Shown piece after piece: positions 6,183 to 35,177 of a stretch of 64,000 nt of DNA. Every line of letters starts with the position of its first letter. The first letter of the stretch is position 1. Under the pieces are notes generated by a model that made no database searches, was not told the origin of the DNA, and worked only from the letters and a program-made list of their open reading frames with translations. Source of the DNA: Lachnospiraceae bacterium (lineage in GTDB: Bacteria; Bacillota; Clostridia; Lachnospirales; Lachnospiraceae); assembly GCA_017438775.1 (NCBI GenBank), contig JAFRUR010000036.1, forward strand, positions 1-64,000, in the 5' to 3' direction. Made by a program: the position numbers and the translations under genes.

Positions 6183-7103
6183 TCAGTCAACTTTGTTCGA
6201 TTTTCTGTCCTCGATCACCTGTTTGTACGACCGATCGACGTCAAAAATGAGTTCGCCCATCTTGCCGTGTGTGGTCACGATCCGCTTCGGCACAAGATAA
6301 TCCTCTCCGTACCGTACGGCCAGAACGCGGTCATAGTTGCCCGGTACGGGAAAAACGCCGTCCTCGAACGGGATATATTGAACCGTCGAAAACCATTCCT
6401 TTTTATACCTGTAGATCGTGGCGCCCTTGCGGCGGAACATCAGATTTTCCACCTCGTCCGCATCCACACTGCGGAATATATTTTCCCAAGCCCGATACAC
6501 GCCCGCCGTATCGCCGTATCTGGCCGCAAGGTATCTCTTGCGAATCCGCTGCGCGATGCTGCGAGGAGACAAGCCACGAATCTCCCGCTCGATGGCGACC
6601 ATGTCCCGTTTGCACTGCTGGGAACGGGCAATCTGGCTCTCGACCCTGCTGTCGTCGATTCCGTCCAGAACGAAGATATCGATAAAGATCCCCTGATTGA
6701 AAGGCACGACGTCGATCTCCGTGGGGCGGGCAGCACAGGTTTCGCTGTTTCTCAGCTGCGAGTGCCCGCGCGCATACCGACGATCCGTATACCCCGTCTG
6801 CAGAAAAAACGGATGCTCGAAACAGGCAGGTCCCTGACTGACCAGGATATCATAGTCTTTGCGGAGCATCATCACATCGACGTCGTCGTCCCAAGGGATA
6901 AAGTGCCCGTCTCTGACCGCGCCGATCAAAGAACCGTTTGACAGACAGTACTGCACGCCAAGTTCTCTGCAGACACGGTCAAGTTCGTAGAGCAGATCCA
7001 GTTCGACAGCCCAGACCTCTTTTTTCCACCTCTTGATATAGAAGCCGTATCGCTCCTCTTCCCGAAAGAAGTCGGAATCAAATACGTGTTTTGTTTTTAC
7101 CAT
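6183..7103 (-). CDS. LicD-family phosphotransferase
   Basis: The product is about 306 residues with the intact LicD motif SNGSLIGAVR followed by FIPWDDDVDVMM, near residues 50-75. The C-terminal half keeps the usual LicD pattern ending YGEDYLVPK. It probably transfers a phosphorylated alcohol from a CDP donor to a repeat-unit sugar on the cytoplasmic side. It is the middle of three consecutive LicD genes and differs from both in sequence, so the three probably have separate acceptors or linkage positions. The ATG at 7103 is preferred over the GTG directly before it. Confidence 0.88.
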   Translation of the reverse strand: MVKTKHVFDSDFFREEERYGFYIKRWKKEVWAVELDLLYELDRVCRELGVQYCLSNGSLIGAVRDGHFIPWDDDVDVMMLRKDYDILVSQGPACFEHPFFLQTGYTDRRYARGHSQLRNSETCAARPTEIDVVPFNQGIFIDIFVLDGIDDSRVESQIARSQQCKRDMVAIEREIRGLSPRSIAQRIRKRYLAARYGDTAGVYRAWENIFRSVDADEVENLMFRRKGATIYRYKKEWFSTVQYIPFEDGVFPVPGNYDRVLAVRYGEDYLVPKRIVTTHGKMGELIFDVDRSYKQVIEDRKSNKVD

Positions 7104-7129
7104 CACGCATCCTCAAAACGCATCGCCGC

Positions 7130-8062
7130 TCAGATCTGATCAGCCAAAGAGCACTGATACGCCTCTCCAAGGGACCCGGGAATCGGATCGATGCAGAACA
7201 CCTGACCGTTTCCAAGGTCGGCAAAAATGAAGTTGATGTGAAACCGGTCTTTCTCCGGAGGAAACTGCATATAGGTATCGCCGTAGGCGACCTTCAGAAA
7301 CTGCTCGTAATTCTTCGGGACCGGAATCTCCATATCTTCGAAGCGGCAGGACTGCAGGGGAAAGACGTCCGTACGGGCGAAGTACATATCCGCGTGGTTG
7401 GAGTAATACGAACCGATCCGCGAACCCGCACGGCCGCCCCGAATGGCTTCCAGCTGTTCCCTGTACAGTTTCTTCCAGGGTTCCTTGGAAATCAGTCCAA
7501 CCGTTTTCCGATAGGCCTCTTTTCCGATATTCTTGACAAGCCGTTTTGCCGGGACGTTTTTCAAATTTGAGGGGAGCTTTGCGGCTTTATACCACTTTTT
7601 GCTTTTATGTACGACCTTCCGTATCCGGAGATACTCTTCCTGGTCATCCGGAATGGCGTCAAACACGTAAAGATCGATCATGAGCGACGTCGACCACGGC
7701 CGCTTCGAAACCGGATCGATCCAGTCCCGCACGTCGCGGTAGCTCTGGATCCGCGTGTTTTTCAGGTACACGCGCGGAAAGATCTTGTCATGTCTGGGGT
7801 CGGGATCATCCGGCATCACGAGTTCCACATCGTCTCCCCATGCCTCCTTCGGAAGCGCTGCCAGCCGGTCAAGATCCTCCCGGAGAATGCCGATGTCCAG
7901 ATCGTCGTCCCAGGGAATGTAGCCGTTATGCCGGATCGCTCCGAGCAGGGTCCCGGCAAAAGCAAAATACAAAGCGCCGCTTTTCCTGCACGCTTCGTCA
8001 AAACCGTGAAGCAGACGAAGTCCCGACAACTGAATTTCCCTGATGATCTCTCTGTCAACCAT
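7130..8062 (-). CDS. LicD-family phosphotransferase
   Basis: The 310-residue protein has the canonical LicD block AGTLLGAIRHNGYIPWDDDLDIGI near residues 37-60 and a C-terminal YGDTYMQFPPE segment typical of the family. It belongs to the LicD run between the flippase and the ABC importer. ATG at 8062 is chosen; the longer frame begins with a TTG two codons earlier. All acidic residues expected for catalysis are present, in contrast to the LicD at 5283-6134. Confidence 0.9.
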   Translation of the reverse strand: MVDREIIREIQLSGLRLLHGFDEACRKSGALYFAFAGTLLGAIRHNGYIPWDDDLDIGILREDLDRLAALPKEAWGDDVELVMPDDPDPRHDKIFPRVYLKNTRIQSYRDVRDWIDPVSKRPWSTSLMIDLYVFDAIPDDQEEYLRIRKVVHKSKKWYKAAKLPSNLKNVPAKRLVKNIGKEAYRKTVGLISKEPWKKLYREQLEAIRGGRAGSRIGSYYSNHADMYFARTDVFPLQSCRFEDMEIPVPKNYEQFLKVAYGDTYMQFPPEKDRFHINFIFADLGNGQVFCIDPIPGSLGEAYQCSLADQI

Positions 8063-8114
8063 GATCAAAAACGCCTCCGGGCCGCGGCAGCGGGCGCTGC
8101 CATCGGTCTTCCGA

Positions 8115-9575
8115 CTAAAACACTTTCTTCAAAACTTTCCGGACAAGTCCCCAGGCCATGTGGACCAGTTCGGTCATCATCTTATCCCTGAGCGCCAGCA
8201 GGACCAGACCGTAGCACGCGGCTCCGGCGATCACCTGCAGAATGATCAGGGACACGCCGTGCAGCGGAACCGCGGCACCGATCCACCAGATCAAAAGAAG
8301 CATCAGAACGCCTGCGGTGATTTTACGGTAAGAGATCGCCCACAGCTGCCCCCACCTGATATACCCGCCGCTCATCTGCACGTACAGAACGGCGATCGTG
8401 AGCTCCGCGATGACGGAAGCGACGGTCGCTCCGTAAGCCAGAAACCGCGGGATCAGGAGCAGGTTGAAGCACAGATTGATGCACGCTCCCAAAACGATCA
8501 CTTTCGCACTCCGCTTCCGCTGGCCGCTCGGCGTGAAATACTGGCTGCCGAGGCAGTTGCTTGTACCGATGATCAGAATCAAAGGGACCATGCAGTAAAG
8601 CAGAGGCACCACGGGATCATATCCCTCGCCGAAAAACAGCGGAACGAAGCGGGAGGCGATTCCCACGATTCCGAAGATCGCACCGTAGGCAAGGAGATAT
8701 ATAAAATCCATCGACCTCGCGATTCGTCTTCGGATCTCATCGTACTTCTCTTCCGCAAAGAGATATGAAATCCTTGCTCCCATCACCGAATTGACCGCCA
8801 CGAAAACGACCGATTTTACGATCTTGATGATCTTTGTCGCCTGTTCGTAGTATCCGTTCTGATAAGAGCTCCCGGTGATCGCCCCGATGAGTGTCTTGTC
8901 CAGGACAGTGTAGATCGAAGTGGCAATGGTGGGGATGAAGTAGATCAGCGTCTCATGAAGATGATGTCTGAAATGCAGTCCCCTAAAGTCCACTTTTGTC
9001 AGCATCCCGGGAAGGTACAGCCACATGGACAGGTTCCCCAGGAGCATCGTCATGGAATTGATCACGCAGTAAAGGATGAGGTCATCCTTCTTTTTCACAA
9101 GAAGGAATAAAAGAACAATGCCCAGGATCTTGACCGCGGAGTTTCGAACGACGATGTTTCTGACTTTTTCCAGCCCCGTGAAGTACCACGAGATATCGAA
9201 CATTGTGCTCAGAAGAAACGGCGTCAGCGCGAGGAAATACCACCTGTAGCGGGCAAAAACGATAATAACGCCGATCCACACCGCCAGGCAGGCGCCGGAG
9301 GTCATGACGGTCAGGAGCTCGATCTCCCAGAACAGCTTGCTTGAGCGCTCCCTGTCGTCCCGTGCCCGCGCGATCTCCCGCGCACCGTATCCGGCGGTCC
9401 CGAGGGCGCCAAACAGCATGAAATACGTGATGATCGAATGTGTATAACTGTAGATTCCGACACCGTCAGCCTTTAAGATTCTGGATACGTAAGGCGTTGT
9501 AATAAACGGTGTGATCAGCACCAGCAGTTCATAAAAAACCCGGAACAGATAATTTTTCTTGAGGCTCGGCTGCAT
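8115..9575 (-). CDS. Wzx-type polysaccharide flippase
   Basis: The 486-residue product is hydrophobic throughout with about 12-14 membrane segments. It shows the oligosaccharide flippase hallmarks PFITTPYVSRILKADGVG near the N-terminus and GYGAREIARAR in the first cytoplasmic loop. It should flip the undecaprenyl-linked repeat unit across the membrane. The start ATG lies three bases after the polymerase stop with GAAGGTGG as RBS. Together with the neighbouring polymerase it defines this locus as Wzx/Wzy-dependent. Confidence 0.92.
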   Translation of the reverse strand: MQPSLKKNYLFRVFYELLVLITPFITTPYVSRILKADGVGIYSYTHSIITYFMLFGALGTAGYGAREIARARDDRERSSKLFWEIELLTVMTSGACLAVWIGVIIVFARYRWYFLALTPFLLSTMFDISWYFTGLEKVRNIVVRNSAVKILGIVLLFLLVKKKDDLILYCVINSMTMLLGNLSMWLYLPGMLTKVDFRGLHFRHHLHETLIYFIPTIATSIYTVLDKTLIGAITGSSYQNGYYEQATKIIKIVKSVVFVAVNSVMGARISYLFAEEKYDEIRRRIARSMDFIYLLAYGAIFGIVGIASRFVPLFFGEGYDPVVPLLYCMVPLILIIGTSNCLGSQYFTPSGQRKRSAKVIVLGACINLCFNLLLIPRFLAYGATVASVIAELTIAVLYVQMSGGYIRWGQLWAISYRKITAGVLMLLLIWWIGAAVPLHGVSLIILQVIAGAACYGLVLLALRDKMMTELVHMAWGLVRKVLKKVF

Positions 9576-9577
9576 TT

Positions 9578-10840
9578 CTAGACCACCTTCGCCCATCGGA
9601 CATGCGCGCTGTCTCCCTGTCCCGCATACGCCGCAGCCAGAAGAAAAATATACGGAATCGAGAATGCGGAGTTGGAAATCAGAAGATTAAATACCAACAC
9701 GGCAATGACCAGGAACCAGACGCTCCTGTTGGTGCGGAAATACTGGCTTTTGTACGAAACCGCGGCAGCTCCGACATAGATCGACAGCAGCCAGAGTCCG
9801 CCGTAACTCATCAGAACAGTCAGCCCCATGCTCAGGCCCCGGTTGCTTCTGGAAACATTCTGAAAATCGATGATCGCCTGTGAATTGTTGTAGCCTGCGC
9901 CAAACAGTGGATGCTGCAGGAAGGCTTTCAGTCCCGCGATAAAGTCATCCATCCGCACCATGCCGGACGTGGTCAGCATTTTTTCGCCGATCAGGGCGCT
10001 GCTGACAAACGCGATTCCGGCGATGGCAACAGAGGCAGCCACGATCTTGACCACAGCGGCGGACCTGTTTCGGCTCCCCTTCGAGACATAGTTGATGGCG
10101 ATCGCAATCATGACAACGATGATGCCTTTCGTAGAACTGGTCGAAAGAAGAGTGACAACAAAAATGACAATGCTGATAATGGCCTTGCGCTGCTTATCCT
10201 TCGTGTCCGCAAACTTCCGGGTCACCATTTCGATCAGCAGAGCGTAAGTCAGGAACCCGGAATAGCCGGGAGCCTCCGCGAAAATACCCACATTGCAGAG
10301 AGTGCTGTGCACGTTGTTCTGCACAGGGTTTTCAAAATACATATAGAAATACGTATACGTCGTCCGGTAGTGGTCCGCCCAGTAATACACCAGCTCTCTT
10401 CTGCCCGGCAGGATATCCAGAACCGAACCGAACAGCCAGAAAAAGAGACTGACGACGGCGAGAATCAGCATGACTCTCGAATACACGGTCAGGAATTCCT
10501 GCATCAATCCCTTTCGGTACAGAACGCAGGAAAACAGAAACAGGCAGACAAACACACCGACAAAGGATGTCAGGAATCTGTTCGTGTTGTAGCGGGTCAC
10601 AAGCGCATAGACCAGGAAAGCCGCCACGATCACCACGAGCCGAATCAGTTGACCCTGCCTGATGCTCAGAGACCCAGCGGTGACCAGAAAAAGAAGGCAG
10701 AGAATCCCCATCAGCCAACCAAAACCGCGGCCATACAGCGGTGTATTTGTCAGGTATCTGTACATGGTCGACGAGTCCAGCAGAACCACGACGACGATCA
10801 GATACATGATGGCTTTCAGGATTCCGGTTTTTGTTTTCAT
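9578..10840 (-). CDS. Wzy-type O-antigen/capsule polymerase
   Basis: A 420-residue polytopic membrane protein with about ten or more hydrophobic segments and a large loop around residues 125-200. The segment FLQHPLFGAGYNNSQ near residue 310 is typical of the Wzy/O-antigen ligase superfamily. It should polymerise the flipped repeat units. The sequence family is very variable, so the assignment rests on topology, the GAGY-like loop and its position beside the flippase. Confidence 0.85.
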   Translation of the reverse strand: MKTKTGILKAIMYLIVVVVLLDSSTMYRYLTNTPLYGRGFGWLMGILCLLFLVTAGSLSIRQGQLIRLVVIVAAFLVYALVTRYNTNRFLTSFVGVFVCLFLFSCVLYRKGLMQEFLTVYSRVMLILAVVSLFFWLFGSVLDILPGRRELVYYWADHYRTTYTYFYMYFENPVQNNVHSTLCNVGIFAEAPGYSGFLTYALLIEMVTRKFADTKDKQRKAIISIVIFVVTLLSTSSTKGIIVVMIAIAINYVSKGSRNRSAAVVKIVAASVAIAGIAFVSSALIGEKMLTTSGMVRMDDFIAGLKAFLQHPLFGAGYNNSQAIIDFQNVSRSNRGLSMGLTVLMSYGGLWLLSIYVGAAAVSYKSQYFRTNRSVWFLVIAVLVFNLLISNSAFSIPYIFLLAAAYAGQGDSAHVRWAKVV

Positions 10841-10904
10841 TCGATCGTTACCATATGTCAGACCCGACTGCTCCCCCGTTCCGGAGCGGATAGCCTTTTC
10901 CTCG

Positions 10905-11975
10905 TCAGTTGATTTGAGATACTGCCTTTTTCAGGTATTCTCCGCCGCGAAGCTTTTCAGAGATTCGCGCCGCATTGGCGACCATCCGCTGATACTCTTC
11001 TTCCGTAAGATCCGTGATCCGGCCTCCGATCTCCTTCAGCGAGTTCACGGAAAGGCCGCATCCGTTCTCTGTGATGAACTCTGACAGAGCAGCTTCCTTC
11101 CAGATAATCACCGGCAGGCCGGACGCCAGATACAGCGACGCCTTGTGCGGGTTGTTGATTCGCAGATACTCTCCGCTCACCCCGGTACAGGAGTCCGCGG
11201 AATCGCCGTCCCAGACCAGACCGAAAGACGCCTCGAGCACGCCGGGCAGCTCCTCCGGAGGAAAAGCCCCGTGATACGTCACCTGCGGCATCCCCTGGTC
11301 TTCGTATCCGATGCCGTACAGCTGAAAGCTGACGTTGTCCGGGAGCCGGAGCAGATACTGGCATTTATGGGGCTTGAGCGTACCGGCGATCGCAACGTTT
11401 TTTTCCAGTTTTCTTTCCGCTCCGGAAAACGCCGGGATCAGATAGTCGAAAATATCGAGCGAGATCAGCCTGCAGTCTGCAAAGCCCGCCCCGCGCAGGG
11501 TCTCGATCATCTTCGGATTGTGAGCGATGATCGAATCCGCGCACTTGAGAACGGCGCTTTCCTCCAGTTTGATCCTTAGTTTTTTGAGAAAGCCCACGTC
11601 GCTTCTTCTGTTGTAACGAAGGAGTTCCAGGTCATGGATCAAAAGCGCAACTTTTCCGCCGCGCTTCTGTACCGCGCGGAATTCCCACGCAAGAGCGATC
11701 GGCCTGCGCAGCACCGGGAACTGGGCGAGCACTGTGTCACCCGCCTTGATTTTCCTTAACTGCGTCCGCCACTCCTTTCGAAGCGCCAGATTGTCCTTCA
11801 GCTTCCGCAGAAACCCCCTGCTGTCAAGTTCGGCCGCCTTCTCCACAAAGGTGAAATCCAGCGTCAGGGGGACCCAACCGCTCTCCTGAAGGATATCGGA
11901 TGCGTCATTCCTGGCCTTCGGACCCGCCGTGGGGTCCCCGTTGATGATCTCGCGGATAAAATAGTTCATGCTCAT
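10905..11975 (-). CDS. Galactofuranosyltransferase-like glycosyltransferase
   Basis: The 356-residue protein has a GT-B-like layout. An N-terminal half contains KVALLIHDLELLRY and CADSIIAHNPKMIE; the C-terminal half contains VSGEYLRINNPHKASLYLASGLPVI and KEAALSEFITENGCG. This pattern is that of proteins annotated as beta-1,6-galactofuranosyltransferases in Clostridia and streptococci. Sugar specificity is not provable from sequence. It lies between the polymerase and the epimerase genes and probably adds one sugar of the repeat unit. Confidence 0.8.
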   Translation of the reverse strand: MSMNYFIREIINGDPTAGPKARNDASDILQESGWVPLTLDFTFVEKAAELDSRGFLRKLKDNLALRKEWRTQLRKIKAGDTVLAQFPVLRRPIALAWEFRAVQKRGGKVALLIHDLELLRYNRRSDVGFLKKLRIKLEESAVLKCADSIIAHNPKMIETLRGAGFADCRLISLDIFDYLIPAFSGAERKLEKNVAIAGTLKPHKCQYLLRLPDNVSFQLYGIGYEDQGMPQVTYHGAFPPEELPGVLEASFGLVWDGDSADSCTGVSGEYLRINNPHKASLYLASGLPVIIWKEAALSEFITENGCGLSVNSLKEIGGRITDLTEEEYQRMVANAARISEKLRGGEYLKKAVSQIN

Positions 11976-11988
11976 ATTCCCGTGTCTG

Positions 11989-13029
11989 TCACAGATAACG
12001 CAGGGTCCGCTCTGTTCCCTCTTTCAATCCGAAAACGCCCCTCCAGCCCAGACCTTCCAGTTTTTCGGAATCCAGGACGGAATGGTTCATGGGATTATAA
12101 CTCTTCCGTTCCGTTTCGCTGGGGCATTCATACACCACCCGCACGCCGCCGGCAGCTGCCAGCGCCTCTGCGACCTCTCTGACGGAAGCGATGGAGTTCC
12201 TGTTTGAGATATTGTATGCCTCTCCGTCTTCCCCGTTGAGGAGAACTGCCAGAATGGCCGAAGCGCAGTCAAGGGTGTAGCAGTAAGAACGGCGCTGTTC
12301 CCCCGTGCTTTTCATGACGATATCTCTTCCTGCCGCCGCATCGCGCGAGAAAGAAGCGGAAGCACGTGTGTCGGAATCCGTAACGGACGGACCGTAGATA
12401 TGTCCGGGGCGCACGATCACGAAGTCGACGCCGTACTCCTGGCGGTAAGCCGCGCACAGAGTTTCCGCTGCGCGTTTTCCGTCCGGATAGCAGGCCCTTG
12501 GATTCAGGATGTCCACATAGCCGTATTCGTCTTCCCGGAAAGGGCCTTCCCGGCGGTCCGCCCGGTTTCCGTATACCTCGCTGGACGAGATAAACAGAAG
12601 GCGCGAACAGGGATTCTTCCTTGCCGCTTCCAGCATGCTTCTCAGGCCGACGATATTCCCGACCAGCGTCTCGACAGGCTCCTTTGCGTAAACAGCAGGG
12701 TTCGCATTACCTGCGCCGTGGAGAAAATAGTCCGCCCTGACGTCCGCGATCTGCGGTGCAGTAGCTTCAAAGGGCAGGAACTGATACTCCGTCTCCTTCA
12801 GGACGCCGTCAAACCTGCGGGCAGCCCGCTCGCGGCTTCGCCCCGCAAGGATCAGTCGAATCCCGGCGTGACGATGACAGTTCAGCCAGACGATCACGTC
12901 GATCACTGCAGAACAGATCATGCCTGTCCCGCCGGTGATCAGAAGCGTCTTTCCGTACAGGGTCTCAAGACGCGGGATCCTCTCTGCGGCCAGCGCGGCA
13001 TCGTCCCAGTACTCCCGATCATATTTCAT
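11989..13029 (-). CDS. NAD-dependent epimerase/dehydratase
   Basis: The 346-residue short-chain dehydrogenase-type enzyme has the NAD loop ITGGTGMICSAV near residues 31-42 and catalytic SSSEVYG plus YPDGKRAAE, with Tyr-x3-Lys in the variant form YPDGK. The C-terminal part is like UDP-glucuronate decarboxylases and CDP-sugar epimerases. It lies 10 bases after an IspD/TarI-type gene, a pairing frequent next to LicD genes, so it may act on a CDP-linked sugar or polyol. The substrate is unknown. Confidence 0.88.
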   Translation of the reverse strand: MKYDREYWDDAALAAERIPRLETLYGKTLLITGGTGMICSAVIDVIVWLNCHRHAGIRLILAGRSRERAARRFDGVLKETEYQFLPFEATAPQIADVRADYFLHGAGNANPAVYAKEPVETLVGNIVGLRSMLEAARKNPCSRLLFISSSEVYGNRADRREGPFREDEYGYVDILNPRACYPDGKRAAETLCAAYRQEYGVDFVIVRPGHIYGPSVTDSDTRASASFSRDAAAGRDIVMKSTGEQRRSYCYTLDCASAILAVLLNGEDGEAYNISNRNSIASVREVAEALAAAGGVRVVYECPSETERKSYNPMNHSVLDSEKLEGLGWRGVFGLKEGTERTLRYL

Positions 13030-26761: not shown

Positions 26762-26884
26762 TCAGTCGCGCTCTTCTCTGCCGCACTCGTTCTCGTCTTT
26801 GATCGGGCAGTCGGACGTCACGATGATGTTGCTGTTCATGAACTCAACAACCTCGACAGCCGCTTCCTTGTACTCACGCTTCAT
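26762..26884 (-). CDS. Short peptide, candidate RiPP precursor paralogue
   Basis: A 40-residue peptide starts MKREYKEAAVEVVEF, has SDCPIKDENECG near its middle with two cysteines, and ends in a charged tail. A strong RBS (AGGAGGGG, seven bases before the ATG), a consensus promoter upstream and a perfect terminator downstream show it is a real single-gene transcript. Its first 22 residues align without gaps to the 31-residue peptide at 32216-32311: M1, K2, Y5, A8, V10, V12, F15, I20 and V22 are identical. No function is known. It resembles short Clostridia peptides of the MK-x-x-Y-x-P/A-x-x-x-V type. I infer a precursor or signal role. Confidence 0.75.
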   Translation of the reverse strand: MKREYKEAAVEVVEFMNSNIIVTSDCPIKDENECGREERD

Positions 26885-32149: not shown

Positions 32150-32178
32150 TTGACGAACGAAAGCGGAACATATATACT
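32150..32178 (+). promoter_or_regulatory. Promoter of the peptide-radical SAM operon
   Basis: TTGACG (32150-32155) and TATACT (32173-32178) are separated by 17 bases, 38 bases before the 31-residue peptide start. AGGAGG at 32202-32207 is the RBS of that peptide. Confidence 0.75.
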
Positions 32179-32215
32179 ATAGGGAAGTGATCACATCCAT
32201 CAGGAGGCATGCACC

Positions 32216-32311
32216 ATGAAACAGCCCTACGAGACCGCCGAGGTCACCGTTATCGTCTTTGAGGAAGCCGAGATCTCCGTCGTGGATATCTCCATGCCCA
32301 TCGTCCACTGA
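32216..32311 (+). CDS. 31-residue candidate RiPP precursor peptide
   Basis: The peptide begins MKQPYETAEVTVIVF and ends ISMPIVH. It has an ideal RBS, a strong promoter immediately upstream, and is the first gene of an operon with a PqqD-like protein and a radical SAM/SPASM enzyme, the classic set for a ribosomally made, post-translationally modified peptide. The N-terminal 22 residues match the peptide at 26762-26884, which suggests a conserved leader, and the C-terminal Pro-Ile-x-His is repeated at the end of the overlapping reading frame at 32903-33025. The modification and mature product are unknown. Confidence 0.75.
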   Translation: MKQPYETAEVTVIVFEEAEISVVDISMPIVH

Positions 32312-32349
32312 CGCGCGGCCGAACGATTCACAGGCATATGTACACTCCG

Positions 32350-32374
32350 CCGTGCCCTGCGCGGCGGGCCATTC
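32350..32374 (+). terminator. Weak hairpin after the precursor peptide gene
   Basis: CCGCCG and CGGCGG flank a short GC-rich loop and are followed by the T-rich ATTCATTTT. It could reduce read-through so that the peptide is made in excess of the enzymes, a common arrangement in RiPP operons. Confidence 0.4.
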
Positions 32375-32402
32375 ATTTTACGCAGAAAGCGGGTAAACCC
32401 CG

Positions 32403-32939
32403 ATGAAGAAAACCGCACTGGCCGCGGCATCCGTCCTGGCCGGTCTTGTTCTGATCGGAGCCATTGTGCTGATTCTGCTGCCCCGCGGTTCAGACGTCCC
32501 GGAAACGACCACCCTCATGGCGGCGGAGAATGTGACGGCACCCTCCCCGGAGCGGACGCAGCCGCAGTCCCGGCCCGCACCGGAACAGACGCAGCCGCAG
32601 TCCCAGCCGGTCCCCGCGCAGACAGACGCCGCGCCGGCAGAAAGCACGCAGCTCGCGCCCGAAGAGACCGGGACCGCAGAGGCTCCGCAGACCGCAGAGG
32701 CGCAGACGCCCCGCAGCACCGGTTCCTATACCATCCGGCCCACGGCCCCCGCGCACACCGCAGGCTATCACGCCGGACGTGAATACATGCACACAAGGGA
32801 GTATGTGTATCCCACGGCGCCCCCTCTTCCCGGTCAGGCAGAGCCCGCCGGAAACTCCGGAGACCCGGAGGAAGGGCCGTTCGAGCCCACCCCGGAGACC
32901 CCATGCCGGGTGCCGGCGCCATCGCCTACGGGGTCCTGA
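32403..32939 (+). CDS. Membrane-anchored Pro/Gln/Thr-rich protein, probably frameshifted
   Basis: The 178-residue frame has one N-terminal hydrophobic segment (about residues 5-27, AAASVLAGLVLIGAIVLIL) and no lipobox. A long low-complexity linker rich in Pro, Gln, Thr and Ala follows, with the near-repeat TQPQSRPAPEQTQPQSQPVPAQT abbreviated as TQPQS-x-P twice. It ends CRVPAPSPTGS in this frame. Adding one C to the C4 run at 32899-32902 would instead join it to the frame at 32903-33025 and end it in LPIFH. The RBS is weak. I recognise no family; it looks like a surface-exposed stalk that could carry a modified C-terminus. Confidence 0.6.
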   Translation: MKKTALAAASVLAGLVLIGAIVLILLPRGSDVPETTTLMAAENVTAPSPERTQPQSRPAPEQTQPQSQPVPAQTDAAPAESTQLAPEETGTAEAPQTAEAQTPRSTGSYTIRPTAPAHTAGYHAGREYMHTREYVYPTAPPLPGQAEPAGNSGDPEEGPFEPTPETPCRVPAPSPTGS

Positions 32940-33025
32940 CGCCCCCGCCCGAGAAATCCGTGAACGGCATCGTTCCGGACGTCCTCCTGGGTGACGACGG
33001 CCTGGCCCTCCCCATCTTCCACTGA
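32903..33025 (+). CDS. Overlapping 40-residue frame ending LPIFH
   Basis: This frame starts with ATG inside the end of the Pro-rich gene and contains VLTPPPEKSV, then DVLLGDDGLALPIFH and a stop. GGAG lies five bases before the ATG, so independent, coupled translation is possible. The alternative is that it is the true C-terminus of the Pro-rich protein, separated by a one-base change. Its last residues copy the pattern of the 31-residue peptide (Met/Leu-Pro-Ile-x-His-stop), which makes chance unlikely. Confidence 0.55.
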   Translation: MPGAGAIAYGVLTPPPEKSVNGIVPDVLLGDDGLALPIFH

Positions 33026-33037
33026 TCATCGCAACGT

Positions 33038-33078
33038 CAAGGCCCTGCCGCACGCCCGCAGACGCGCCGGCCGAGGCC
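33038..33078 (+). terminator. Possible attenuator hairpin before the PqqD-like gene
   Basis: AAGGCC near 33039 can pair with GGCCTT near 33069, enclosing a GC-rich interior, followed by TTTTCCTTTTTC. The stem is short and the loop long, so read-through is likely; it may set the ratio of peptide to enzyme. Confidence 0.35.
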
Positions 33079-33121
33079 TTTTCCTTTTTCACAGTGCCGC
33101 AGACGCAAGAGGTACCGCATC

Positions 33122-33388
33122 ATGAAGCTCAAAAGCAACGTCATCATTCAGCCCCTGGCCGGAGAGACCATGCTGGTCGTCGCCGCCACCACCCCGGACG
33201 ACTTTCACGGCATCGTGAAGTTCAACGACACCGCAGCCGACATCGCCTCCGCCATGAGGGAAGATGTCACGGAAGATCAGATCCTGACCCTTCTGCAGGA
33301 GAAATACGAAGGTCCCGAAGAAGCCATGCGCGCGGACATCCGCAAGGTGGCGGACCGTCTTCGCCGGATCGGCGTTCTGGAAGGCTGA
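33122..33388 (+). CDS. PqqD-like RiPP recognition protein
   Basis: The 88-residue protein has the PqqD pattern: a short beta N-terminus, the segment IVKFNDTAADIASAM around residues 38-52, then two helices (EDQILTLLQEKYEG and IRKVADRLRRIGVLEG). PqqD-fold proteins bind the leader of a precursor peptide and present it to a radical SAM enzyme. AAGAGGT is a suitable RBS. Its place directly before the SPASM protein and after the peptide gene supports leader recognition here. Confidence 0.85.
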   Translation: MKLKSNVIIQPLAGETMLVVAATTPDDFHGIVKFNDTAADIASAMREDVTEDQILTLLQEKYEGPEEAMRADIRKVADRLRRIGVLEG

Positions 33389-33439
33389 CAGCTCCCGCAC
33401 CCGCACAGCATCCCGCGTTTTCACGCACAGGTGGACCGT

Positions 33440-34954
33440 ATGAAGACTCTGTTCCCGGGGGACGACAACGTTCTCCGCGTTCTCGGCAGACAAAAACCCT
33501 CGCCGGACAGCGCCGTCCGGAAGAATCGCTACGCCCTCTCCTTCACTTCGAACGGGAGGGTGTTTCTTTGGAACGGCCTGACGCGCGCCATCCTTGCCGC
33601 GCAGGCCCCGGAGGAAGAGGCCCTGTTTGCCTCCTTCCCTTCCCTGGATCCCGCACCGGACGGCGCCGATGCGCCTGTTCCTGCCGCCGCAGGGGCCCAC
33701 GGCGGACAGGCAGATTCCGGGGCCGGCGCATCTTCTGCGGAGCCCGCGCCGGAGGATGCCCCCGCACCGGCAGGTGTCCTCTCCTCTCCGGCCGGACAGG
33801 CCCTGTACGACGGATATTTCTTCCTTCCGGAGGGCCGTTCTTCCCGCGCCCTGTATCAGGACGTTCTGAACGCCCTGCGCCTCCTGCGCCGCGACATCGG
33901 GAAGACCACGTCCTACACCATCCTCTCCACCATGGTCTGCAACGCGCGCTGCCCGTACTGCTACGAGGGCGGCCGCCGGCAGTATCCCATGTCCATGGAG
34001 ACCGCGGATGACATCGCCGCCTACATCATTGAGAAGTCCGGAGGGAGCGAGGTCAGCCTCTCCTGGTTCGGCGGGGAGCCCCTCCTGGGCGTCGCCGCGA
34101 TCCGCAGGATCCTGGCTGGTCTCAATGCGGCCGGCGTCGCATATAAGTCCAGCATCGTCACCAACGGGTATCTCTTTACCGAGGCGCTGGCGGAGGAAGC
34201 GGTCCGCGACTGGAAGCTCACCCGCGCCCAGATCTCCCTGGACGGCACGGAGGAGCGGTACAACCGGATCAAAAACTACGTCAATCCCGTGGCGTCGCCG
34301 TACCGGCAGGTGCTCCGCAATATCGGTCTTCTGCTGGATGCCGGCGTGCGCGTCTCCATCCGGCTCAATACCTCGCCCGAAAACATCGAGGACATGTTCC
34401 GGCTGGTCGGGGAGCTCGGGGAGACCTTCCCCGGCAGGAAGAACCTGCGCGTCTACGCCTACCCCCTGCACTTTACCGACAGCATCTACAAGGGTCTGGA
34501 GACGCCTCCCGGCGATCTTCCCGCCCTCTACGACGGCCTCGACCGGCTCGGCGCATACATCCGGTCGCTGGGCTTCCCGGCCTCGGGAAGGTTCCCGAAT
34601 CCCGCAAAGTTCCCCATCTCCTACTGCATGGCCAGCGCGTATTCCTCCGCCTGCGCGATCGACCCCTCCGGGCGGATCACGCACTGCGAGCACTGCGGAG
34701 ACGAATGGTTCTACGGCAATGTGCGGGAAGGCATCACCGACGCCTCCCTCTACCGCTCCCTCATGGAGCCGCCGCTCCCGGACCGGTGCGCCTCGTGCCC
34801 GTTCCTGACCACCTGCACGCCCTTCCGCCACCCCTGCCCCGACATGTCGCCCTGGTGCCGCTGGGAGGTGCGCCGCGACCTGCGCGCGAACCTGCTGCGC
34901 CAGACCGAAGAACAGGCGCCGCAGACCGAGGAGGAAGAGCATGCGGCGTGCTGA
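33440..34954 (+). CDS. Radical SAM/SPASM peptide maturase
   Basis: The 504-residue enzyme has radical SAM cysteines C167, C171 and C174 in CNARCPYC, the GGEPL motif after it, and a C-terminal SPASM region from about residue 396. Its cysteines are spread over CMASAYSSAC, HCEHCGDEWF, CASCPFLTTC and PCPDMSPWC. SPASM radical SAM enzymes form cross-links or other changes in peptides. An N-terminal domain of about 60 residues is separated from the core by an Ala/Pro/Gly-rich insert (about residues 70-115), unlike the compact family. ATG 33440 follows AGGTGG; a GTG three codons earlier is an alternative. The substrate is probably the PI-x-H ended peptide. Confidence 0.9.
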   Translation: MKTLFPGDDNVLRVLGRQKPSPDSAVRKNRYALSFTSNGRVFLWNGLTRAILAAQAPEEEALFASFPSLDPAPDGADAPVPAAAGAHGGQADSGAGASSAEPAPEDAPAPAGVLSSPAGQALYDGYFFLPEGRSSRALYQDVLNALRLLRRDIGKTTSYTILSTMVCNARCPYCYEGGRRQYPMSMETADDIAAYIIEKSGGSEVSLSWFGGEPLLGVAAIRRILAGLNAAGVAYKSSIVTNGYLFTEALAEEAVRDWKLTRAQISLDGTEERYNRIKNYVNPVASPYRQVLRNIGLLLDAGVRVSIRLNTSPENIEDMFRLVGELGETFPGRKNLRVYAYPLHFTDSIYKGLETPPGDLPALYDGLDRLGAYIRSLGFPASGRFPNPAKFPISYCMASAYSSACAIDPSGRITHCEHCGDEWFYGNVREGITDASLYRSLMEPPLPDRCASCPFLTTCTPFRHPCPDMSPWCRWEVRRDLRANLLRQTEEQAPQTEEEEHAAC

Positions 34955-35177
34955 GGCCGGCAAGGAGTTATTTTACAAAAGCGAGAGAAAAGATAAGATC
35001 TGGTGAGTCGACCATCCGAATTTGATCGGTGTATGGGAGTTTTCCTTCGACCGAAAGACGATCTACAATATGTTTGCAGATTATCCCTGGGAACTGACTC
35101 CTGAGCAGGTCGAGCTCTTTGACCGCGAGAATCCATACTGGGCAGAATTCTTCACCGACCGAAAACAGCAGAAATGA
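34941..35177 (+). pseudogene. Small conserved protein interrupted by an in-frame TGA
   Basis: A 79-codon frame starting inside the end of the radical SAM gene reads KELFYKSERKDKIW, then TGA at 35004-35006, then continues in the same frame through VDHPNLIGVWEFSFDRKT and LFDRENPYWAEFF to a normal TGA. From memory this matches a short Clostridia family with KIWW-VD, FSFD and ENPYW; the TGA occupies the position of the second Trp. TGA is the usual stop of many genes here, so this is best read as a nonsense mutation. I do not know the function of the family. Confidence 0.65.

Follow-up and report, generated by a model that had tools for sequence, protein, structure and literature searches.

A short operon of a Lachnospiraceae bacterium raises the question of what becomes of a 31-residue peptide encoded ahead of a radical enzyme, and of why this peptide and the protein encoded just downstream end almost alike. 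The operon occupies positions 32150 to 34954 of the window, i.e., the 64,000-nucleotide stretch of contig JAFRUR010000036.1 (assembly GCA_017438775.1) analysed here. With a probability of roughly 0.6, we read it as an operon for a ribosomally synthesized and post-translationally modified peptide (RiPP) of a widespread family, which also encodes a membrane-anchored stalk; this stalk ends in a copy, free of Cys, of the tail of the peptide and putatively mimics it on the cell surface.

The operon and its radical SAM enzyme

As the initial annotation had stated, a promoter, a 31-aa peptide with a good ribosome-binding site (RBS), a membrane-anchored Pro-rich protein, a PqqD-like protein and a SPASM radical S-adenosylmethionine (SAM) enzyme follow one another in a single plus-strand run, in which two reading frames end in P-I-x-H. 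The promoter is sigma-70-like (TTGACG-17-TATACT, 32150..32178, +), with 10/12 matches to the consensus. Behind it lies the precursor-like peptide MKQPYETAEVTVIVFEEAEISVVDISMPIVH (32216..32311, +), which consists of the leader MKQPYETAEVTVIVFEEAE and a putative core ending in ISMPIVH, and which is free of Cys. An AGGAGG is found 8 nt upstream of its ATG, and its codon use is strongly coding-like (1.07 bits/codon versus other frames). The PqqD-like protein, a candidate RiPP recognition element (RRE) of 88 aa (33122..33388, +), matches Pfam PqqD (6e-10), and its top NCBIfam match, below the cut-off, is lasso_PqqD. It adjoins the predicted SPASM radical SAM peptide maturase (33440..34954, +; Pfam radical SAM, 7e-17). 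The reading frame of the latter opens also at GTG 33431; ATG 33440 is the likelier start, because the profile match begins there. Gene content and profile matches agree that precursor, PqqD-like protein and SPASM maturase form a set of the RiPP type.

To characterize the enzyme, we combined profile searches with a structural model. The SPASM model of Pfam scores 13.6 bits, below its cut-off of 21.5, and every curated model stayed under its cut-off in an NCBIfam scan of the enzyme. In comparison with 30 relatives, C399, C419, C453, C456, C462 and C469 are invariant, as is the CxxxCxxC motif, and C476 is nearly so. An AlphaFold2 model made from the 30-enzyme alignment has a mean predicted local distance difference test score of 83.8 and a predicted template-modelling score of 0.86. 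The solved folds nearest to it are those of CteB (5why/5wgg), TigE (8vpo), anSME and SuiB, with CteB the best. The predicted fold confirms a peptide-modifying SPASM architecture; it does not settle the chemistry.

Leader family, cores and precursors elsewhere in the genome

We scanned 84,980 species genomes with a profile from an alignment of the enzyme and its paralogue, which yielded 313 relatives; the best 79 loci, mostly from rumen Clostridia, were kept (each is labelled here by L and a number). The enzyme protein alone gave no matches in such a scan, whereas the two-sequence alignment succeeded. The enzyme sits within a clade of 81 members that is split from the outgroup maturases (Shimodaira-Hasegawa approximate likelihood-ratio support, 99). 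A PqqD gene lies on the same strand within 1.5 kb in 46/79 loci, as it does in the window, and 55/79 loci encode a peptide with a shared leader, of consensus M-x-K-Y-x-x-[P/A]-x-[ML]-E-[VI]-[VI]-x-[LF]-x-x-[ED]-D-[VI]-I-x-[TA]-S. When leader profiles were trained on one half of the loci and tested on the other, 39/46 and 36/43 hits fell within 2.5 kb of the enzyme and on its strand. The precursors match no model in Pfam or NCBIfam, and a literature search in which subscription journals were thinly covered found no account of a YxxP/A-leader family with a radical SAM enzyme. The RiPP family is widespread and common in rumen Clostridia, was found in no curated library, and is apparently undescribed. 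The earlier view that the peptide belongs to no class had to be given up in this respect, since its leader, although a weak match, is that of the family found beside 55 of the 79 homologous enzymes. No close relatives of the operon as a whole were found in the same genus or family, where the six same-family matches at E<1e-20 are other systems; a search of the phylum with the 30-enzyme profile added a single match, again in a different system.

The cores are variable and mostly contain Cys, which is absent from 5/67 family peptides. Asp or Glu occupies the position Cys+3 in 44% of cases, versus 18% (family cores L062-L140; z 8.1, a value that overstates independence, the core sequences being related). 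Counted per locus, C-x-x-[D/E] occurs in 33/55 versus 20 expected, the highest of 400 shuffles giving 32. In C-x3-D/E motifs, the maturase PapB links Cys to Asp/Glu as thioethers, and it accepts spacings from C-x0 to C-x6 (PMC9413430). Thus, the family chemistry is most likely a thioether between Cys and Asp/Glu in C-x-x-[D/E]. A related system with another type of core was seen in the genomes of L095 and L130, where L172, L178, L183 and L186 encode precursors of about 110-130 aa with the leader core VVRFNESDVIVASG; several of these adjoin a PqqD gene and an S26-like peptidase gene.

To place the 31-mer, we ranked 1935 ORFs with a leader profile built without any window sequence. The 31-mer came third (12.6 bits, E 0.0087); it was outranked by an orphan peptide at 26762-26884 and by a precursor (E 7e-8) that belongs to a paralogous cluster of contig C52. 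Its leader holds YETAEV, i.e., YxxPx[L/V] with A in place of P. As judged from its sequence, the 31-mer is a divergent, Cys-free member of the leader family, and weakly so. A family leader is found near the enzyme, faintly in the 31-mer and clearly in the orphan; the Cys-containing CxxD/E core, usual though not universal in the family, is lacking in the 31-mer. Being free of Cys, the latter is unable to join in Cys thioether chemistry.

The orphan precursor, MKREYKEAAVEVVEFMNSNIIVTSDCPIKDENECGREERD (26762..26884, -), lies downstream of a 1616-aa subtilase gene and scores 29.5 bits with the leader profile (E 4.5e-8). It has its own TTGACA/TACACT promoter, an AGGAGG RBS and a terminator-like hairpin, as read by eye. 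One of its two Cys stands in CxxE, and the peptide has one C-x3-D, with Asp/Glu thus at +3 and +4; the orphan, ending in SDCPIKDENECGREERD, can undergo Cys thioether chemistry. A leader search of the whole genome, whose query contained the 31-mer, the orphan and the C52 precursor, recovered all three, along with a weak fourth peptide from another cluster (C94:77.7 kb); the orphan's E of 1.2e-13 in this search thus includes itself in the query. Five other family genomes contain 2 to 9 such peptides each, mostly scattered. The promoters of the 31-mer and the orphan resemble each other in the RBS and start region only, a similarity too short to weigh, as good a match arising in 1/400 shuffles.

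Two other clusters in the same genome were also inspected. The first, a paralogous one (L035, G000:C52, 5025-9606), comprises genes for PqqD, a 374-aa protein, the Cys-rich precursor MEKKKYVKPVLSVLELSEDVIAASLCPGDSPCYCSGDCGGYCYDCMSV and a glycosyltransferase-like protein, with the SPASM enzyme, 38% identical to the window enzyme by BLAST, on the other strand. The second (L048, G000:C94:65500-85105, 6543-12296), about 10 kb past the window, is a third PqqD/radical SAM cluster; it encodes a 99-aa precursor-like protein, a kinase-like protein, a 385-aa radical SAM protein, a transmembrane (TM) Pro/Thr-rich protein, PqqD and an ABC transporter.

The anchored stalk and copies of the precursor tail

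The gene that follows the peptide encodes a membrane-anchored, Pro-rich stalk protein with an N-terminal hydrophobic segment, 178 aa long as assembled (32403..32939, +). It overlaps a 40-aa frame (32903..33025, +) in the -1 frame, which ends in DGLALPIFH and has a GGAG 5 nt upstream of its ATG. The coding signal switches from one frame to the other at about 32883-32903; the 40-aa frame scores 0.73 bits/codon, and the 178-aa frame drops to -0.56 where the former gains. Because the coding signal passes in this way, the 40-aa frame probably supplies the true C-terminal end of the Pro-rich protein, by a frame break or an assembly error, or else is a coupled gene. Most simply, a single protein of about 218 aa has its frame broken by one base, either in the genome itself or through its assembly; the other possibility, a coupled gene, would have its own GGAG. 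Homologue searches with the Pro-rich protein and with the 40-aa frame gave low-complexity matches only, and the YGxPP motif of the 40-aa frame is absent from the relatives. An IVPDVLLG within this frame (32960-33005, +) resembles the ELPEVPIG-type tails of two lipoproteins described below (L069 and L106) and is possibly a second, internal copy of the tail.

The two tails of the window, ISMPIVH and LALPIFH, score 23 with BLOSUM62 over their last seven residues, a value reached by a fraction of 2.6e-4 of random C-terminal pairs. Among 52,477 stops in total, the other 79 loci have 6 that follow a P-[ILV]-x-H, and two more lie here, 0.7 kb apart. The likeness of the two sequences, though spotted post hoc, is more than chance would give. 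The initial annotation had taken P-I-x-H for the signature of a class and had named in advance the check to be made; among the precursors at the best 79 of 313 homologous enzymes, none ends in this way, and P-I-x-H is ruled out as a family signature. What survives of the claim is that the tail shared by peptide and downstream frame is probably meaningful, because L130 and L095 are arranged alike, with tails of their own. It is the most interesting part of the locus, for a reason other than the one first given. The tail may also be the modified core, as the initial annotation proposed, although most of the family has Cys in the core and the 31-mer has none.

In L130, a precursor ending in CTWELPRN is followed after 13 nt by a membrane-anchored Thr/Pro-rich protein ending in DWELPRV. 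In L095, a precursor ending in CQYELPEHG is followed after 6 nt by another such protein, ending in SWELPEVN. These two anchored proteins are 51% identical, with the TM region and WELP retained, and their tails differ as those of their own precursors do, PR in L130 and PE in L095 (E/R). The anchored tails of L130, L095 and the window are all without Cys. The pair of the window, an ISMPIVH precursor and an LALPIFH anchored protein, fits this pattern as far as the sequences go. Other tails of the kind are carried by lipoproteins, encoded 3' of the enzyme in L069 and L106 (YELPEVPIG and YELPEIPIG, respectively) and 3' of a precursor in L114, a locus of Ruminococcus sp. FC2018 (FELPLVPVV). Searching 391 genomes of the class for stalks gave nothing. 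In one subclade (L104, L112, L122), proteins of about 800 aa with an N-terminal membrane segment are encoded directly 3' of the precursor.

Proposed role, alternatives and known systems

According to our proposal, the PqqD-like protein would bind the leader (Y-x-x-[P/A]-x-[MLV]) of the 31-mer, and of the orphans elsewhere in the genome, and, by analogy with linear polyphosphorylated peptide (LPP) and lasso systems, hand the leader peptide to the SPASM radical SAM enzyme. The enzyme would then modify the region past the leader; on the Cys-free 31-mer, either a different radical reaction or no reaction would take place. The gene 3' of the peptide would provide a membrane-anchored Pro-rich stalk tipped with LALPIFH, the Cys-free copy of ISMPIVH. 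The tethered tail would then most likely act as a surface mimic of the peptide that serves self-protection or display, a role that the sequences suggest with modest confidence. More tentatively, and at somewhat less than even odds, such a stalk could be a new and recurring RiPP component, namely an anchored protein with, at its exact C-terminus, a Cys-free copy of the core tail that changes together with the precursor and serves as an immunity mimic or for display.

Several observations weigh against this proposal. The leader-profile score of the 31-mer is weak, the peptide lacks the Cys present in 62/67 family peptides, and the enzyme forms a long, lone, unplaced branch inside its clade. The tail of the window stalk is reached only through the frame change near 32883-32903, and lacks the aromatic-E of [WYF]ELP. 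Stalk proteins were found in just 5/79 loci and are dissimilar in sequence. L114 was picked out by its ELP motif, and in L069, L106 and L114 the likeness to the precursor tail is loose, the close matches being those of L130, L095 and the window. Lastly, the operon contains neither a transport gene nor a leader-protease gene.

An unlikely alternative is that the 31-mer is a decayed or regulatory relative, the true substrates being the Cys-containing orphan and others, with Cys-Asp/Glu thioethers, and the P-I-x-H likeness incidental. The orphan indeed outscores the 31-mer (29.5 versus 12.6 bits), places Asp/Glu at +4 and +3 from Cys and carries its own promoter and terminator-like signals, and scattered orphan precursors are the rule in the five family genomes; however, it is the 31-mer that heads the operon behind the promoter, with a strong coding signal and RBS, and Cys-free siblings are known at other family loci. 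We also consider it improbable that the stalk tail is a second substrate, in which case the enzyme would act on both tails and the modified residues would be displayed outside the cell by the stalk. The exact C-terminal position of the tail copies in L130, L095 and the window would suit this idea, but these tails are Cys-free, and the stalks start with a membrane anchor rather than a Y-x-x-P leader, so that PqqD would not deliver them.

It seems to us quite improbable that the shared tail serves for recognition by a common protease or exporter rather than for mimicry. Although [WYF]ELPx(1-6) recurs at the exact C-terminus of otherwise unlike anchored proteins, the tails of L095 and L130 track their local precursors (PE/PE, PR/PR), which a general signal need not do. 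Very unlikely, finally, is a cofactor of the mycofactocin or pyrroloquinoline quinone (PQQ) type, in which a peptide of about 30 aa would be cross-linked or decarboxylated at its C-terminal PIVH and freed as a small redox molecule. The parts are the same (short peptide, PqqD-like protein, SPASM enzyme), and the C-terminal residue could react; yet the 25 listed matches of the enzyme include no such model above the cut-off, the tail is PIVH rather than Val-Tyr or Glu-Tyr, and no dehydrogenase partner was seen among the adjacent genes examined.

The operon is a SPASM RiPP operon with a lasso/LPP-like leader. YxxPxL is the leader motif of lasso peptides, with PqqD homologues as its recognition domain (PMC10368454), and in LPP peptides this motif recurs, together with an RRE of that kind (PMC13381572). 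The family resembles LPP and paeninodin-type lasso systems in its [Y/W]xxPx[L/V..] leader, stand-alone PqqD-like RRE, short peptide and variable C-terminus, and other family loci carry apparent genes for a kinase, an S26-like peptidase, an ABC transporter and a nucleotidyltransferase. It differs in that a SPASM radical SAM enzyme replaces the cyclase or kinase; the window operon lacks kinase, nucleotidyltransferase, peptidase and transporter, and the adjacent genes (26.9-38 kb) include no cyclase, B2 peptidase, SpI peptidase, kinase or transporter. With the PapB ranthipeptides (NF047865) the family shares a SPASM maturase and acidic cores in which Asp/Glu follows Cys by a few residues. However, the window enzyme scores 82.1 bits against a cut-off of 340, the family motif is C-x2-D/E rather than C-x3-D/E, PqqD is separate, and repeated C-x3-D/E is found neither in the Cys-free 31-mer nor in the orphan, which has one C-x3-D. 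The SCIFF maturase CteB (PDB 5wgg/5why) is the closest solved structure by both sequence profile (1.7e-24) and fold, but the enzyme reaches 35.9 bits of the 425 required by TIGR03974, and a six-Cys substrate is missing. TIGR04463, for maturases of Cys-rich peptides, is the top curated model for the enzyme and is matched by 30/30 members scanned; here the score is 95.7 bits against a cut-off of 525, and neither NCBIfam nor Pfam gave a match for the precursors.

Two smaller features complete the locus. A weak hairpin 3' of the 31-mer gene (32346..32368, +) is a possible attenuator, in a region where 4 terminator-like sites were found and 2.1 are expected. Just 3' of the operon, a small DUF7675 protein (35022-35177, +; Pfam 1.8e-25) has its own promoter-like site and is probably unrelated to it.

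Taken together, these results place a cryptic operon in a large RiPP family of the rumen and gut that Pfam and NCBIfam do not model. They predict Cys-x-x-Asp/Glu as its cross-link motif, and connect SPASM radical chemistry with the leader code of lasso and LPP peptides. They also point to a possible new partner in RiPP systems, a surface protein that bears a peptide copy at its tip, a proposal that can be put to a direct test.

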